Virus record (IMG/VR): IMGVR_UViG_3300047322_000556
Span: 25,362-89,361 of that record
Direction: 5' to 3' (one strand)
Source of the DNA: a virus
Length of the DNA: 64,000 nucleotides
The translations under genes were made by a program, and so were the position numbers. Within the stretch, counting starts at the first letter, position 1, and every line of letters begins with the position of its first letter. This document shows, one piece after another, positions 2,283-25,444 of the stretch. Under the pieces are notes generated by a model. It saw nothing but the letters and a program-made list of their open reading frames with translations. It had not been told where the DNA came from and ran no database searches.

Positions 2283-2656
2283 CGCAGCAGCTCTTCCTGT
2301 TCGGCGAAGTGTCGGTCGATGGACCGGTGAATCCGCTGCCCAAGCCGCCCAAGGCGGAACGGTGGGTGCTCGTGGATCACGCGTGCCGCCATTGCTTCGG
2401 GCGGCTGCTCGCGACGGGAAAGGGCAAGACGGCGGCCGTGCAGTGCTCGCAGTGCGGTCGGCGCGAAGAGGGCCAGGTCGAAGCGCTCTGCGCGTGCGGC
2501 GTGACGACGCCGAACGGCCGTCATCTGCTGGAGTGCTATCGCAATGCCGAGAAAACGCTCGAAGTGCCGCACGAGATCCTCGTGCGCGTGCGCGAGCTCG
2601 AAGAGCGCGCGAGCGAGATACCGAGCGCGCGCCGCGTGGCAATACCCGGATTTTGA
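2279..2656 (+). CDS. Zinc-ribbon-like hypothetical protein
   Basis: 125 aa from ATG 2279 (ATGA overlap with the upstream gene). Residues about 36-72 contain CRHC, CSQC and CAC groups consistent with a zinc ribbon, followed by a helical arginine/glutamate-rich tail. It is the last gene of the left operon; a terminator hairpin begins within its stop codon. Function unknown. Confidence 0.75.
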   Translation: MTQQLFLFGEVSVDGPVNPLPKPPKAERWVLVDHACRHCFGRLLATGKGKTAAVQCSQCGRREEGQVEALCACGVTTPNGRHLLECYRNAEKTLEVPHEILVRVRELEERASEIPSARRVAIPGF

Positions 2657-2677
2657 CGCTCGCAGCGTCATTCTTTC
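2654..2677 (+). terminator. Rho-independent terminator after replication operon
   Basis: A perfect 7-bp stem TGACGCT/AGCGTCA (2654-2660 with 2664-2670) with a CGC loop, followed by TTCTTTC. It overlaps the stop codon of the preceding gene and lies directly before a GTCGTGAC element. Confidence 0.7.
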
Positions 2678-2678
2678 G

Positions 2679-2695
2679 GTCGTGACGCCATCGTG
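2679..2695 (+). promoter_or_regulatory. GTCGTGAC element, copy 1 (putative late promoter/activator site)
   Basis: GTCGTGACGC followed by CATCGTG, 3 bases after a terminator and 42 bases before the HU-like gene. It matches the recurring consensus GTCGTGACGCNACNNTG found at nine structural or helicase-gene junctions in this window. Confidence 0.6.
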
Positions 2696-2736
2696 AGGGT
2701 GCGGGATAGACCCGCGCAACTCATGAAGGTAGATCC

Positions 2737-3015
2737 ATGCGTAAGGACATGTTCGTGCAAGTGCTCGCCGATCGCGCGGGCGTGAAGCGTGCCGAAGCCG
2801 GTGCGGTGCTCGATGCGCTGACCGGGCTTATCTCGGCGGCAAGCGGCGGCGTCGGCCGCATCCGCGTGCCGGGGCTCGGCAGTTTCGAAGTGACGCAGCG
2901 CGCCGCGCGCCGTGGCGTCAATCCGCGCACGCTCACGCCGATCGATATTCCGGCCCGCCGCAAGGTGCTTTTCAAGCCCGCAATCGAGCTCGTGCGCGCC
3001 GCTGGAGCCGAGTAA
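2737..3015 (+). CDS. HU/IHF-like DNA-binding protein
   Basis: 92 aa, the usual length of HU-family proteins. The helical N-terminus is followed by the FEV...RAARRG..P.T segment and the basic arm ending in FKP, as in bacterial HU and IHF subunits. It is expected to bend and compact DNA, which fits phage DNA packaging or transcription. The weak upstream AGGT lies 7 bases before the ATG. Its TAA overlaps the ATG of the terminase-like gene (TAATG). Confidence 0.88.
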   Translation: MRKDMFVQVLADRAGVKRAEAGAVLDALTGLISAASGGVGRIRVPGLGSFEVTQRAARRGVNPRTLTPIDIPARRKVLFKPAIELVRAAGAE

Positions 3016-3623
3016 TGGCGAAGCTGACTGACGCCGAATGGGCACAGGCCCGCGCGGTATGGGAAGCGGACCCGAAGGTCAACTTCGTGCATATCGCGGC
3101 CGAATTCAACGTCACGAAGCAGGCCGTCGCACTGCGCGCGAAAAAGGACGGCTGGCAAAAGCAAGCCGACATGCCGCATATCGTGCGCGAGGCGCATCGC
3201 GCGGCTGACGCGAAGAGCAAGCCGCCGACGCCGATCGGCAAGAAGGGCGCGGCGGCCGAGCCCGCCGAGAAGCCGAAGATCGAGCGCACGGCGCCCGCTA
3301 TGCTGCCGACGCCGCAGGACCGCGCCGAAGCCGTCAATCGCGCTGTCGATCATCGCGCCGAGCTGCTGAGCCGTCATCGCGCCGAGTGGGAGGACGTTCG
3401 GCGGATTGTGCAGGCCGCCGTCGATCTGGAGGATTTCGACAAGGCCAAGCTCGGCAAGATCACGAGCGAGGCGACGAAGATCATTCAGGAAGGCGAGCGC
3501 AAGGCGTGGGGTATCGATCAGGACCAAGGCGACGATAAGAGCAAGACGACTATCGTCATCGAGCGCCGCGACGAGAGTACTTCACGGCACGCGCCGCGCG
3601 CTGATCCACAAGCGCCGTCGTGA
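3015..3623 (+). CDS. Putative terminase small subunit
   Basis: 202 aa. Residues about 1-50 form a helix-turn-helix of the kind in which AAEFNVTKQAVALRAKKDGW resembles terminase small subunits. An Ala/Lys/Pro linker follows, then a helical segment ending in IIQEGERKAWGID (about 155-175), a motif common in small terminases of high-GC-host phages. It would recognise the packaging site and regulate the large subunit. The large subunit lies 6.5 kb downstream, separated by a giant gene. The C-terminal tail is basic and low-complexity. Confidence 0.65.
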   Translation: MAKLTDAEWAQARAVWEADPKVNFVHIAAEFNVTKQAVALRAKKDGWQKQADMPHIVREAHRAADAKSKPPTPIGKKGAAAEPAEKPKIERTAPAMLPTPQDRAEAVNRAVDHRAELLSRHRAEWEDVRRIVQAAVDLEDFDKAKLGKITSEATKIIQEGERKAWGIDQDQGDDKSKTTIVIERRDESTSRHAPRADPQAPS

Positions 3624-3634
3624 CGCGACGATGC
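3617..3634 (+). promoter_or_regulatory. GTCGTGAC element, copy 2
   Basis: GTCGTGACGCGACGATG overlaps the stop codon of the putative small terminase and precedes the 1,508-aa gene. It matches the consensus seen at the other structural-unit starts and is followed at once by a hairpin. Confidence 0.6.
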
Positions 3635-3657
3635 CCCTCAGACCGTTACTGAGGGGC
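3633..3657 (+). promoter_or_regulatory. Hairpin containing the ribosome-binding site of the giant gene
   Basis: A perfect 9-bp stem GCCCCTCAG/CTGAGGGGC with loop ACCGTTA. No T-run follows, so it is a poor terminator. Its right arm contains GAGGGG, the only good Shine-Dalgarno sequence for the GTG start at 3662, so folding would hide that site. Confidence 0.55.
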
Positions 3658-3661
3658 GTCT

Positions 3662-6600
3662 GTGACTGCTCGCATCATTTTCTTCGTCAATCCCGAGATT
3701 GACTTGCTCAAGGCCACTTTCAAGAAAGAAATGTGGATTCCGGGCTATACGAAACACGACGGCACTTCCGTCGAAGGCCATTACAAGCACGTCAACGTCG
3801 CCGACGATCACGACGATGCGAAGGTGCTGAGCGGCAACGGTTCCGCGACGCAGAAGGACGCGCACAAGCTGCTCACGAAGCACGGCTTTTACGGGCTGCC
3901 GCAAGAGCATCATCTGCCGGTGCTGCTCGCGCACGCGACCGATATGCAGGACGCCGCCGGTATCCGCGCGCGCGCCGCGAAGTTCCGCGTCGCCATTCTC
4001 GGCGGCGCAATGCCGATTCCCTCTCAGACGAAAGCGTATCTGCTGCTCGACGCGGACAAGCAGGCGAAGTACAAAGCCGAGTTCGAAAAGGCGGGCAAGC
4101 TCGATCTGTTCGAACAGGCGATCGCCGAAGGCAAGGCCGCGCCGGACGAACCGGGCGAAGCGCCGCAGAAGCCCGCAGAAGCCGCCGCCGCGCCCGCGCC
4201 CGAAGCGGTGCAGCCGGAAGCGCCAGCGAGCGCGCCCGAGGCCGCGCAGGAGCCCGCATTCAAGCCGCTCGATCACGGCGAGCTGAACATTCCCGGCAAG
4301 ACGAAGAACATCGACGCCGAGCTCGACAAGTACAAAAAGCAGCAGGCCGCCGACGCGAAGGCGAAGGCAAAAACCGCCAGCGCCGAGAAGAAGGAAAACA
4401 AGGCGAAGGCGAAGGCGCTTTTTGACGAGTACATCGACGCGATCAAGGCCAAGCATGGCGCGAAGTACGGCGCGAAGGAAGTCGAGAACATGCTCGACGG
4501 TTGGGTGAAGTGGGAGCCGAAGAAGGCGATCCAGTTCATCGAGCAATTCGTGAAAGAACAGGGTGCCACCTATGAGGCTGCGGCGCCTGAAGTTGCGCCC
4601 GAGCCGACGCCAGTGCAGCAGGCCGCGCCGAAGAGCGACGAGGCGAAGGAAAAAGCCGAGAAGCTCACGTCGATGGTGGCCGATCTCAAGGGCATGGAGT
4701 TCCCTGCAATGGACGAGCTCGCGGACTCGCTGCCGGGCAAGGCGTCGTGGTTCATGTCGGGCATCGCGCAGGCGAATGACGACTGGATCAAGGAAGGTCA
4801 GGCCGCGTGGGACGCGCTCGCGCCCGAGCAAAAAGCCGCGTCGCTGTCGCTGCTCGAAGCGTCGATCAAGCACGATGCGGAATACGACGCCAAGCACGCC
4901 GAGAAGCTGACCGATGACAAGCTCACGGCAGTCGCGCACAAACTCTCGATTCTCAACGGGCTCAAGAAGCAGTGGCTTGTCCCTGCAATCACGAAAGAGA
5001 CGATTGACGATGCGGCCGCCAATGGCGACGTTCAAACGCTTCAGCAGCTCGCGAGCATCTTCGAAGGCAAGGAACAGCTCGGCTCATTGAGCTACGTCAA
5101 GCAGGCGCTCGCGCAAGCGCAGGCCGGGAAGGAAGAGCCGAAAGCCGAAGTGCCCGCTGCCGCATCGAGCGAGCCGGTCAAGCCCGTTCTGCCGGGCAAC
5201 GCGCACCATCTCTGGTTCGATGAGGTTGAGGAAGCATACAAGGCCGGTGACGCCGAGAGTCTGGAGAATCTGGCGCATGCCTTCGGTGTCGATGACGAGG
5301 CGGCGGCTAAAGCGATCACAGGCTACGCGAAGGCGTGCATCGCTGCGCTCGAAGCGAAGAGTGCGCCCACTGCGGCGTCGAGCGCGTCGGTCAAGCCGAC
5401 TATGCCCGACTTCGGCGGCTCGCTCGTCTCTGGTGGCATCGCGAAGAAGATTGCGGCCGAGATGGAGGCTGGCAACGTCCAAGGGCTTCAGGATCAGCTC
5501 TACATGATCGGCAATCCCAATCCGGGGTCGCAGTTTGCCACGCTGAAGAAGTATGCCGAGGATGCGCTCGCCTATGTGAATGGCGGTGGCGCTGCTGCCG
5601 ATGACGGCCCGAAAGAAGGCGACACGAAGGTTATCGACGGCGTCACCTATGAGCTCAAGGGCGGCCGCTGGCACAAGGTCGGCGGCGCTGAAACGGCGTC
5701 CGATACGGTCGGCATGCCGGTGTTTGCTGGCAAGACGATCGAGTATTACAGCAAGGTCGCGGCGAAGCTCAAGGCGCTCTTCGACAAGGGCGATTGGGAC
5801 GGCATTCAGAAGATGATGGACGGCGACGGCAAGACGTGGGCGGGCACGTCGCCGAATAGCAAGCTGCTGATCCAGTACGGCAAGGAATTGCTCGGCGCGC
5901 ACGCCGCGCATGGTGACGCCGCGCCGGTCGAGCAAGCGGCGCCCGAGCCCGCGCTGCAAGCCGCGCCGGAACCGGACGCCGACGAGCCTGAAGCTGATCC
6001 GAGCAAGCCTGAGTCGATCGACGGCTGGCATCAAACCGGCGGCCAGAAGGGTTCGAACGCGGGCGGCGAATTCACGGACGAGCACGGCCAGAAGTGGTAC
6101 TGCAAATTCCCGGCATCCGAGTCGCACACGAAAAACGAGATGCTCGCGGCGAAGCTCTATGAGGCCGCAGGCATCGAAGTGCCGCATCTGAAGCTCGTCA
6201 CGCAAGGCGGAAAGGTCGGCATCGCCTCGAAGATCATCGACGGCGTCAAGAAGGATTCGTCGGCGCTCGCGGCCGGTGTGCCGGGCGTGGCCGATGGCTT
6301 CGCGGTCGATGCGTGGCTCGCGAATTGGGACGTCGTCGGCACTGGCTACGACAACATGCAGATCAAGCCGAACGGGCATGCTGTACGCCTCGACGTCGGC
6401 GGCTCGCTGCTGTATCGCGCGCAAGGCACGCCGAAGGGCGACGAGTTCGGCAACACGGTCGGCGAGCTCCAGACGCTCAAGAACGGCAAGAACGGCTATG
6501 CCGCGCACGCCTTCGGCAAGCTGACCGACGCGCAGATCGCGGAGTCGGCGAAAAAGGTGTCGGCGGTGTCGCCCGAGACGATCCAAAAGCTCGTCATGGA

Positions 6601-18502: not shown

Positions 18503-18765
18503 AGCGCATGGCTGTTGCGGCGATTCTCGCGATCGTTACTGCGACTGCGCTTGCGAAGGGCGGCGGCGGCGGTGGTCACGGTGGTGGTGGCGGTCATGCG
18601 AGCGCAAGCGCGCATCCTTCCGCCTCGGCGCATCCGGTGACGTCCGCGCACGCTGTCGAGTCGCCCGCGCCGCATGCTTCGACGTCGTCGGGCAGTCGTC
18701 CTTTCTCTTGGTTCTTCGGTGGATCAAGAGGCTGCGACAAGTCGAAGCAGCAGGATTGCAAGTGA
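18499..18765 (+). CDS. Secreted Gly/His-rich small protein
   Basis: 88 aa. A clear signal peptide (MKRMAVAAILAIVTATALA) is followed by a Gly-run with His, then a Ser/Ala/His-rich region and a C-terminus with two cysteines (GCDKSKQQDC). It would be exported to the periplasm, where His/Gly tracts might bind metal; function is unknown. It is the last coding gene before the structured RNA region. Confidence 0.65.
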   Translation: MKRMAVAAILAIVTATALAKGGGGGGHGGGGGHASASAHPSASAHPVTSAHAVESPAPHASTSSGSRPFSWFFGGSRGCDKSKQQDCK

Positions 18766-18774
18766 TTCCTGTGA

Positions 18775-19779
18775 AGAGGGAGAGTCGCCGGACTTAAATC
18801 GGGGAGTGGCTCGCCTAACGAGCCGCCTCAGAAGAGCGGCCCGCCGTCGTCGCGCCGACGTAAAAGTGGCCGTAGCTCCGTATGTCGATAGGCAAGGGTC
18901 TTTAGCTCGCGTTTGAGCCCTTTCCGTACACAGGGCCGCTCTTCTGAGGTTGCGCGTGGTGTGCAAAGCCGCGCGCGAGCTTCGAATGACTGGCGTAACC
19001 AGTTGGGCCGCCGACCGGCGGTGAGGGGCGCAAGTCGCTTCACCGTCAGCCCGGCAACGAATTCTTCCTACGGGTACTCGCGCGAGCGAGTTTGGAATGC
19101 TGGCAGATATCCCGTTGAATGATCCAGCCCCCGGCGATGCGGGTGTAATCATCAGGTGGCCGTCACCATGAGCATCGTTAATCCTCGGCCGCGTGGCTCC
19201 CGTAAGGAGCCGCCCGCAAAGCGCATTCGCTGAGTGCTCTTTGCGGGTCTGGATGACTACCTTTCAAGACGGACCCTGTAAATGTCCACGAAGGCGCGAT
19301 CAGCTCTGCGTTACATGCGACGACTGACTGCCGTAAGCAGTCATCTCACGCGAAGCATTTGGGTCGGTGCCACCAGCAGTATGCCGATCTCCCCGACCGA
19401 TCAGCGCGAACACGTCATCGGTTCAAATGCTTCGACGTGAGATTAAGCGGTCGCAGCCGCTCGGAAACGTCGCGAGACGCTCCTGACTGCCGGGAAAGTA
19501 CCGGCCCAATTTTGTGTGACCCGCGATGTTGGGAACTACGACCGTAGCCTCGGCGGCCCTTTCGGGGGATAAACGAGGACGAGGATTAGCAGGCGAGTGC
19601 CTCGGCAGCAAAACCCTTGCAGCACAGCACGACTATCCTAACCGCCGTTTCGCTCTAGCTTCGAGCGCGGTCGTCGGGGCTGATCGACGCGAGAGACGAG
19701 AACGGCGTCGCGCGTTCGTTTGCCGAGTGGCTCCCGTAAGGGGCCATGCCCGACTTGCCGCCGTAAGTGGCAGCCCTTC
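18775..19779 (+). ncRNA. Candidate giant structured RNA (GOLLD/ROOL-like setting)
   Basis: About 1 kb with no convincing gene but dense in perfect helices. Two 17-bp long-range helices: 18826-18842 with 18933-18949, and 19345-19361 with 19424-19441 (one bulged A). A 9-bp helix: 19213-19221 with 19239-19247. Six hairpins with a C(G/C)TAA pentaloop: 18808-18824, 18988-19004, 19195-19211, 19325-19343, 19728-19746, 19756-19772. GCGA tetraloop hairpins: 19076-19091 and 19468-19479. tRNA-Tyr follows directly. Size, ornate folding, phage location and tRNA linkage recall GOLLD and ROOL RNAs, but class membership is not shown. Ends are approximate and no dedicated promoter was found. Confidence 0.75.
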
Positions 19780-19866
19780 GCGTGGGTAGTCCCGTAACGG
19801 TATCGGGGGGAGACTGTAAATCTCTTGCCTTCGGCCTTGGTGGTTCGAATCCATCGCCACGCACCA
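19780..19866 (+). tRNA. tRNA-Tyr (anticodon GTA)
   Basis: 87 bases including an encoded CCA. Acceptor GCGTGGG pairs with GCCACGC (one G-G mismatch at the base). Anticodon stem GGAGA/TCTCT with loop CTGTAAA gives anticodon GTA. A long variable arm, expected for tRNA-Tyr, is followed by the T-arm GGTGG-TTCGAAT-CCATC, discriminator A and CCA. The D-arm (TCCC/GGGG) has an 11-base loop. It sits directly at the 3' end of the structured RNA region. Confidence 0.88.
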
Positions 19867-19882
19867 TATTTTCGGAGTCTGA

Positions 19883-20371
19883 ATGTCTCGTCGCGTCAAG
19901 CTGGTGCTGCTCGGTGTGGTCGTGTTCATCGCGATCGCGATTCTCTTCTCGTCGTGCAGCTCGCGCGAGTACTCGACGGCATACGCGCCGCAATATGCGC
20001 CGCCGGTCGTCGCGCAAGCGCCGATCATTCAGCCCGCGCCGATCGTCCAAGCTGCGCCGGTCGTCGTGCAGCAAAACGACGGCTTCATTCATGGCCTTCT
20101 GCTCGGGCACATGATGAGCGGCGGCGGCAGTCATTCGGTCGTCCATCACTACGATGCGCCGCGCCCGGCATACGTCGCGCCGCGCACGACAGTCGTCAAT
20201 AACACGACCGTCATCAATCGCCCGGCCGCGCCCGCATACGTGCCGCCAAAGCCCGCTTACGTCTCTCCGAGGCCCGCATACGTCGCGCCGCGCGCAACGT
20301 CCTACGCGGGCTCCTATGCGTCGCGATCGAGCTATTCGTCCGTGACGTCGCGCGCAGTCTCACGCCGGTAA
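19883..20371 (+). CDS. Lipoprotein with PAYV(A/S)P repeats
   Basis: 162 aa. A hydrophobic N-terminal segment ends in a lipobox-like FSSC (about residues 22-25), so Cys lipidation and inner- or outer-membrane anchoring are likely. The rest is low in charge, with repeated PAYVxP and APxV motifs and a short central IHGLLLGHMM. CGGAG precedes the ATG. A phage lipoprotein could act at the surface, for example in superinfection exclusion, but nothing shows this directly. Confidence 0.7.
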   Translation: MSRRVKLVLLGVVVFIAIAILFSSCSSREYSTAYAPQYAPPVVAQAPIIQPAPIVQAAPVVVQQNDGFIHGLLLGHMMSGGGSHSVVHHYDAPRPAYVAPRTTVVNNTTVINRPAAPAYVPPKPAYVSPRPAYVAPRATSYAGSYASRSSYSSVTSRAVSRR

Positions 20372-20508: not shown

Positions 20509-20516
20509 GGCTCTGA

Positions 20517-20650
20517 CGTATCGCGCCGGGTGTCGTTCAGCGCGTAACAGGGGTGGACTTCAGTGATGACCCGACCCGGCGCGATACGCGAGAGTCCAAT
20601 GCAAGGGTAAGAGCGGGTGAGTGCATCAATATCCCGCCGCTCTCAACCCA
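20517..20650 (+). promoter_or_regulatory. Structured leader RNA with probable pseudoknot
   Basis: A perfect 15-bp stem CGTATCGCGCCGGGT/ACCCGGCGCGATACG (20517-20531 with 20574-20588) encloses 42 bases. Loop bases TGGACT (20544-20549) can pair with AGTCCA (20593-20598) beyond the stem, the arrangement of an H-type pseudoknot. GCGGG/CCCGC (about 20615-20640) adds a further hairpin before the ribosome-binding site of the 20671 gene. No known riboswitch class is recognised. Confidence 0.6.
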
Positions 20651-21160: not shown

Positions 21161-21184
21161 GGCCGCCCTAAGCGGCCTTTTTTT
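21161..21184 (+). terminator. Rho-independent terminator
   Basis: GGCCGC-CCTAA-GCGGCC (21161-21177) followed by seven T's. Its CCTAA loop equals that of the first pentaloop hairpin in the structured RNA. It ends the island transcript before the 21202 gene. A further imperfect hairpin GACGTCC/GGGCGTC lies about 80 bases upstream. Confidence 0.85.
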
Positions 21185-25294: not shown

Positions 25295-25444
25295 TTACTG
25301 GCGGTTGAGGCTTTGCAGGTATTCGAGTATCGGAACGGCTTCATATCGCGCCGTGTTGAGCGCGTCAACCGTGCGCCGCTCGAATGTCTCGCATATCACG
25401 CGGCCGGTGGCTTTCTCGCGGATGATCCAGCTCGCCGTTCTCAT
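25295..25444 (-). CDS. Small hypothetical protein
   Basis: 49 aa from ATG 25444, which overlaps the stop of the GIY-YIG gene (ATGA). Begins MRTASWIIREKATGRVI, a short two-strand then helix layout. Translationally coupled to the nuclease gene; function unknown. Confidence 0.55.
   Translation of the reverse strand: MRTASWIIREKATGRVICETFERRTVDALNTARYEAVPILEYLQSLNRQ

Follow-up and report, generated by a model that had tools for sequence, protein, structure and literature searches.

We describe a mosaic array of small structured RNAs in a phage, located within a stretch of 64,000 nucleotides of viral DNA (positions 25,362 to 89,361 of the IMG/VR record IMGVR_UViG_3300047322_000556), hereafter called the window. 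The array fills about 1 kb upstream of a tRNA-Tyr gene. Our data strongly support its division into at least five separately folded RNA domains, named A, B, core, C and Proteo-phage-1, with the tRNA at the end; equally well supported are the short hairpins with a CGUAA loop that adjoin most of them, and the fact that related phages combine domains of these kinds differently, in another order though on the same strand. Altogether, the evidence supports an array that is structured, strand-locked, modular, rapidly rearranged and phage-borne. A single transcript may carry all the modules. Related phage and prophage sequences are cited below by L numbers, and their corresponding regions are called islands. 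The features, in window positions, are:

18806-18826, plus strand: spacer hairpin 1, loop CCUAA, identical in L414
18826-18949, plus strand: module A, with a perfect 17-bp closing helix, 18826-18842/18933-18949
18987-19005, plus strand: spacer hairpin 2, loop CGUAA; the stem differs in L414 and still pairs
19006-19192, plus strand: module B, borders inferred from the flanking hairpins
19193-19213, plus strand: spacer hairpin 3, loop CGUAA, from the hairpin scan
19213-19247, plus strand: hairpin P0 (9-bp helix), its 3' arm overlapping P1 by GGG
19245-19299, plus strand: pseudoknot core, from alignment covariation; P1 19245-19249/19272-19276, P2 about 19260-19263/19291-19294
19325-19343, plus strand: spacer hairpin 4, loop CGUAA, from the hairpin scan
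19342-19443, plus strand: module C clamp hairpin, 8 bp, 2x3 internal loop and 9 bp around an insert of about 65 nt
19542-19624, plus strand: Proteo-phage-1 RNA (Rfam RF03044), 57.6 bits against a gathering score of 42, model positions 1-82 of 82
19727-19747, plus strand: spacer hairpin 5, loop CGUAA, from the hairpin scan
19755-19773, plus strand: spacer hairpin 6, loop CGUAA, from the hairpin scan
19784-19866, plus strand: tRNA-Tyr, anticodon gta, from the tRNA search
20513-20600, plus strand: outlying clamp-type hairpin, compared with L048

The mosaic order emerges from the comparison of islands. When 3-kb stretches were matched all against all, with core and tRNAs excluded, 167 shared stretches lay on the same strand and only 1 on the opposite strand; some of the longer ones are flanking genes, which keep their strand as well. 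Within 1 kb of the reference point, 92 short shared stretches are shifted by more than 60 nt. Both Proteo-phage-1 and module C come after the core in the window and before it in L031; in phage Mica, module C again comes after the core. Positions +213..390 of L023 match -281..-105 of L051 at 83%, and clamp hairpins are gained or lost between phages 98-99% identical. Because the same modules recur in different orders, interspersed with tRNAs and tRNA-like hairpins, we read the region as a mosaic of small structured RNAs and not as one fixed 1-kb RNA.

The latter had been proposed by an earlier, sequence-only reading of this DNA, as one RNA of about 1 kb and possibly of a new class. Structured, unclassified parts are indeed present, but one part is Proteo-phage-1 and the order of modules varies between islands, so the idea of one fixed RNA was set back. 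We consider quite improbable its fuller version, in which a single large ornate RNA of a new class would combine a conserved core with a variable periphery, perhaps as a homo-oligomer, in the style of GOLLD and ROOL. Those RNAs are phage-borne, noncoding, about 0.5-1 kb long, close to tRNA genes and richly structured, and GOLLD consists of a conserved and a variable part, sometimes with tRNAs in the linker (PMC12286853). Size, phage origin and tRNA neighbourhood agree with that description, here in an 89-kb virus record with tRNA-Tyr 4 nt downstream, and the folding energy also speaks for a single RNA; however, modules lie on either side of the core depending on the island, Proteo-phage-1 occurs in L195 without the core and apparently with its own terminator, and the helices are local.

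The folding energy of the region gives z = -3.9 on the plus strand and -3.2 on the minus strand, in a comparison of 20 shuffles only, none of which folded equally well. The perfect 17-bp inverted repeat closing module A is the longest within 150 nt in the whole 64-kb window, against 15 bp for the longest in 20 shuffles. A second, near-perfect helix pairs 19342-19360 with about 19424-19443 (8 bp, a 2x3 internal loop and 9 bp). The sequence-only reading had called these two 17-bp helices long-range: the perfect or near-perfect pairing was found, but they enclose only about 90 and 65 nt, each closing its own domain and not tying the kilobase together. The 9-bp helix that it had also described is present (19213-19221 with 19239-19247).

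The best-documented domain is the core. A blastn search detected a short conserved patch, at about 19246-19294, in Burkholderia phage Mica as well as in N4-like Stenotrophomonas and Xanthomonas phages; in these genomes it sits in gene-poor or gene-free gaps in tRNA arrays, or between an integrase and a tRNA-like sequence. A pattern search then matched 55 IMG/VR and 13 GTDB contigs; 5 of the latter 13 were dropped as chance, the rest of the core being missing. The pattern CTGGATGN{5,20}TTCAAGACG was too loose, the matches listed being mostly chance, so that matches were filtered by pattern and model. The core is found in more than 60 distinct phage and prophage sequences, aligned in 63 distinct rows.

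In this alignment, pairing reaches 98.6% in helix P1, where four of the five pairs show two-sided changes, and 86.7% in P2, the helix that crosses it, where each of the six pairs shows them; P2 is short in the window copy. The covariation score of 0.463 compares with 0.147 for shuffled alignments and 0.03-0.09 for slid versions: the rows are related, so the shuffles overstate significance, a fault from which the slid control is free. The search key consisted of TTCAAGACGG and TAAATGTCC, whose invariance proves nothing; CTGGATG, ACGAA, P1 and P2 lie outside it. L181, which was reached via a different segment of its island, carries TTGGAGACGG in a core that is recognisable at 42 bits. The bases of a possible third core helix, UGGA/UCCA, hardly vary. 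Where the upstream hairpin is strong, as in 11 sequences, its 3' arm shares three bases with P1 (GGG, AAG or GAG), and there the two are therefore mutually exclusive; this exclusion of P0 and P1 might act as a switch.

Other RNAs were seen next to cores. In viral contig L043, a permuted tmRNA (1629-1924; Rfam, 106 bits) comes straight after the pseudoknot core, and the cores of L034 and L064 adjoin very large viral tRNA arrays, with dozens of tRNA matches within 10 kb in L034.

Module C is assigned to a family of clamp hairpins, near which a descriptor search places 19342-19443. The family has an 8-bp outer stem ending CACG/CGUG, a CA/GY internal loop and the inner stem UGNNNAUUG/CAGUNNNCA; its inserts, about 28-100 nt, differ from copy to copy, and copies are sometimes in tandem. 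Some complementary 5' arm is present at 39 of 74 sites with the clamp 3' arm, about half of these 39 being clearly family and the rest chance. Across 24 distinct copies, 98.5% of cells pair, and 45 are two-sided against at most 17 in 500 shuffles; these copies were selected for complementary arms, so the weight lies on the free inner positions and on the number of pair types. The window copy, with its 2x3 loop, is divergent and stands outside this count; it is assigned by its outline and because it comes after a spacer hairpin, as the copies in Mica and L031 do. For the outlying hairpin at 20513-20600, L048 has nearly the same insert, with both stem arms replaced yet complementary. L048/L413, 98-99% identical to the window, is longer by about 375 bases at window 20587-20595, an addition that includes more clamp hairpins.

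Modules A and B were compared with L414, whose head protein is 91% identical. The 17-bp helix of module A has three two-sided changes there with pairing kept, L414 being the one relative that informs on this module. The first 55 nt or so of module B are also kept, and the remainder is swapped for sequence with T-arm-like hairpins. The sequence-only reading had claimed a structured noncoding RNA beside a tRNA in a phage, and had named covariation among homologues as one kind of support for it: covarying pairs appear in both the core and module C, and two-sided changes in a single relative extend the support to a third part.

Further hairpins and gaps were noted in other phages. Bordetella phage PHB04 (L411, 94 kb) has two gaps without annotated genes, 2610-4113 and 4228-5315 (1.5 and 1.1 kb), in which a spacer hairpin and the first part of a clamp-like match were seen; they are probably another RNA array. 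A recurrent enterobacterial hairpin, CACAACAGGTAAGAGC..GCTCTTTCCGTTGTG, has differing inserts in L179 (5158-5250), L180 (4305-4385) and L181 (4085-4180); its 3'-arm part occurs in at least 120 viral stretches, a lower bound from a scan with TGCTCTTTCCGTTGTG. In L070 (2660-3513), two spacer hairpins flank a domain of about 440 nt that was not seen elsewhere and that CCAATTTGGC and GCCAAGAATTGG apparently close.

Could the structures of the array act at the DNA level, or be relics? We give very little credence to recombination or attachment sites, intergenic repeats or decayed genes as the explanation. Palindromic stems, fast gain and loss at module borders and the tRNA-like sequence adjoining the integrase in Mica would fit them, but they are at odds with the 167-to-1 strand bias, with the G-U pairs retained in stems, with the covarying crossing helices, and with a core whose spacing shifts by 1-3 nt and which has no conserved frame.

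Nor does the region look protein-coding. No convincing gene lies in 18775-19783, where frames extend to 80-87 aa on the plus strand and 142 aa on the minus strand at most. Pfam has no match for six frames from this region; for one more (19633-20028, minus strand) it gives just sub-cut-off chance matches. No conserved open reading frame was found, as judged from Pfam and from the core-internal spacing, and we dropped the protein-coding reading. These results, with the tRNA at 19784-19866, bear out the gene-free kilobase of the sequence-only reading; an uninterrupted conserved reading frame, which it had named as one finding that would speak against an RNA, is absent by the same two measures.

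The surroundings are those of a phage. The record, 89,361 bases long, encodes a terminase (10157), a portal (13779) and a tail sheath (55836) within the window, indicating a contractile-tailed phage. In two bacterial orders, only 1 of 300 and 1 of 296 genomes carried the element, in both cases the genome used as centre, as expected of a phage-borne distribution.

Besides the tRNA, Proteo-phage-1 is the only Rfam family that reaches its gathering score in the region. When 18700-19900 was compared with every one of the 4,227 families, with a cut-off of E <= 2, just a tRNA-type match on the tRNA was added. In particular, GOLLD, ROOL, OLE and HEARO had no match at gathering score in the window and none at E <= 2 in 18700-19900, which rules out membership as far as their covariance models tell. 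The sequence-only reading, which had suggested this search, was thus right to place the region in neither GOLLD nor ROOL, although one part proved to have a known family after all. The parts other than Proteo-phage-1 and the tRNA are absent from Rfam 15 but look real. Papers dealing with Proteo-phage-1 or with shuffled arrays of phage RNAs did not turn up in a literature search, and these parts may have been described before outside Rfam.

The array contains six pentaloop hairpins with CGUAA or CCUAA loops, several directly before a module; a reading of these repeats as GNRA tetraloops proved wrong. A similar hairpin precedes the core in Mica, L015, L031, L067 and L070. On the plus strand of the window, the sole other such hairpin is the intrinsic terminator at 21161. 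The strict form of the spacer hairpin, CTGGCCGCCGTWAGCGGCCA, occurs in 31 IMG/VR contigs, often between protein genes, and for this reason we take this hairpin to be a general separator, perhaps serving as a processing signal. The terminator-like hairpin itself (21161-21184, plus strand) has a CCUAA loop and is followed by seven T; going downstream from the array, it is the first strong candidate for a terminator.

Prophages give hints of expression. The core of E. coli prophage L179 sits downstream of the repressor gene, in a gap of 1,032 nt. The repeat TTGCGTNNNNNGCAA is found beside the repressor start, as expected of operators, and again at 4750 and 4773 before the array, with 9 matches against 1.1 expected; L181 shows the same operator-like repeats before its array. 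Both are lambda-like prophages, whose arrays start at operator-like sites. In epsilon15, a stretch similar to the L180 array, without the core, is opposite to the late genes, and the depositors annotated a repressor site and a terminator around it. These repeats and annotations point to early expression of prophage arrays once repression is lifted. The window has no operator-like repeats before its array, which is among late genes and may ride on the late transcript.

Phage HK022 uses RNA-based antitermination at its put sites, a structured RNA in a repressor-controlled early leader. By analogy, the array could be a leader RNA that binds RNA polymerase and promotes read-through of terminators and of a long untranslated, tRNA-rich stretch. 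This is the main rival explanation, and in our judgement an unlikely one. It would suit L179 and L181, with arrays in a leader beyond the repressor and at operator-like sites, and the arrays upstream of tRNAs in several phages; but the arrays greatly exceed the length required, include many unrelated modules as well as clamp hairpins whose inserts are exchangeable, and are also found after integrase or between head genes.

The explanation we favour, and consider probable, is an array of separate RNA domains that would be transcribed, cut and trans-acting. During infection it would be made as one long RNA, presumably with the late head genes in the window, and from the operator-flanked leader beyond the repressor gene in the two lambda-like prophages. 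This RNA would be cut between domains, and the products would persist, together with the tRNA, as stable trans-acting RNAs. As a final step, the most likely one although held with modest confidence, they could act as decoys or baits, and their targets would be host factors handling tRNA or other RNA, RNA-targeting defences among them. T-arm-like hairpins lie outside recognised tRNAs 20 times on the plus strand, never on the minus strand and never in shuffles; together with rapid turnover, they suggest that the array RNAs come into contact with host factors that handle tRNA or with defences that target RNA.

Several points weigh against this explanation. The T-arm-like hairpins may partly be odd tRNAs, permuted tmRNA (L043) or attachment-site remnants. 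The T-loop look of the core (UUCAAGA) was in the search key, and L181 has UUGGAGA instead. Spacer hairpins also sit between protein genes and so are not specific to RNA arrays. A promoter scan found none on the plus strand of the window, nor on that of L179 and L180, and the transcription, cutting and partner of the array RNAs are steps that we infer.

Two related enterobacterial prophage islands, L180 (4379-4493) and L225 (3377-3489), carry between portal and terminase genes an annotated pseudogenic tRNA-Gly of about 113-115 nt. Its acceptor and T arms are intact and its anticodon region is odd, which poses the question of a tRNA-like RNA or a relic.

Gene-free gaps in phages usually go unannotated; here, one gap holds several RNA families absent from Rfam. 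Two of them covary strongly and have sequence models adequate for searching, and the array gives the orphan Proteo-phage-1 RNA a wider setting. That modules occur in different orders in related viruses suggests that phages trade small RNA tools much like genes. Tentatively, phages of Proteobacteria may share a pool of RNA modules that recombine as cassettes into tRNA-containing arrays. As an RNA-only equivalent of anti-defence gene islands, such arrays would be expressed early in infection and would affect host RNA metabolism or immunity in trans. Culturable phages and prophages carry related islands, with the core in Burkholderia phage Mica, in Stenotrophomonas phages Piffle and Paxi and in an E. 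coli prophage, and with other island modules in mEp390 and epsilon15, so that the purpose of the RNA array is directly testable.

Among known systems, the array resembles HK022 put RNA in L179 and L181, as structured RNA in an early leader under a repressor; put RNA is far shorter, and the likeness is one of description, not of sequence. Pseudo-ToxI of phage PhiTE is a structured phage RNA that counters host defence by mimicry (PMC3475682). By description, both are structured phage RNAs and the core here is also a pseudoknot, but it is without tandem short repeats and without a known toxin partner. Like GOLLD and ROOL, the array is phage-borne, noncoding, similar in size, next to a tRNA and rich in structure; unlike them, it has no fixed domain order and matches neither model at E <= 2. 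As for Proteo-phage-1, the segment 19542-19624 is a member over the full model: it accounts for 83 of about 1,000 nt and is, here and in L031, one element of a larger array.
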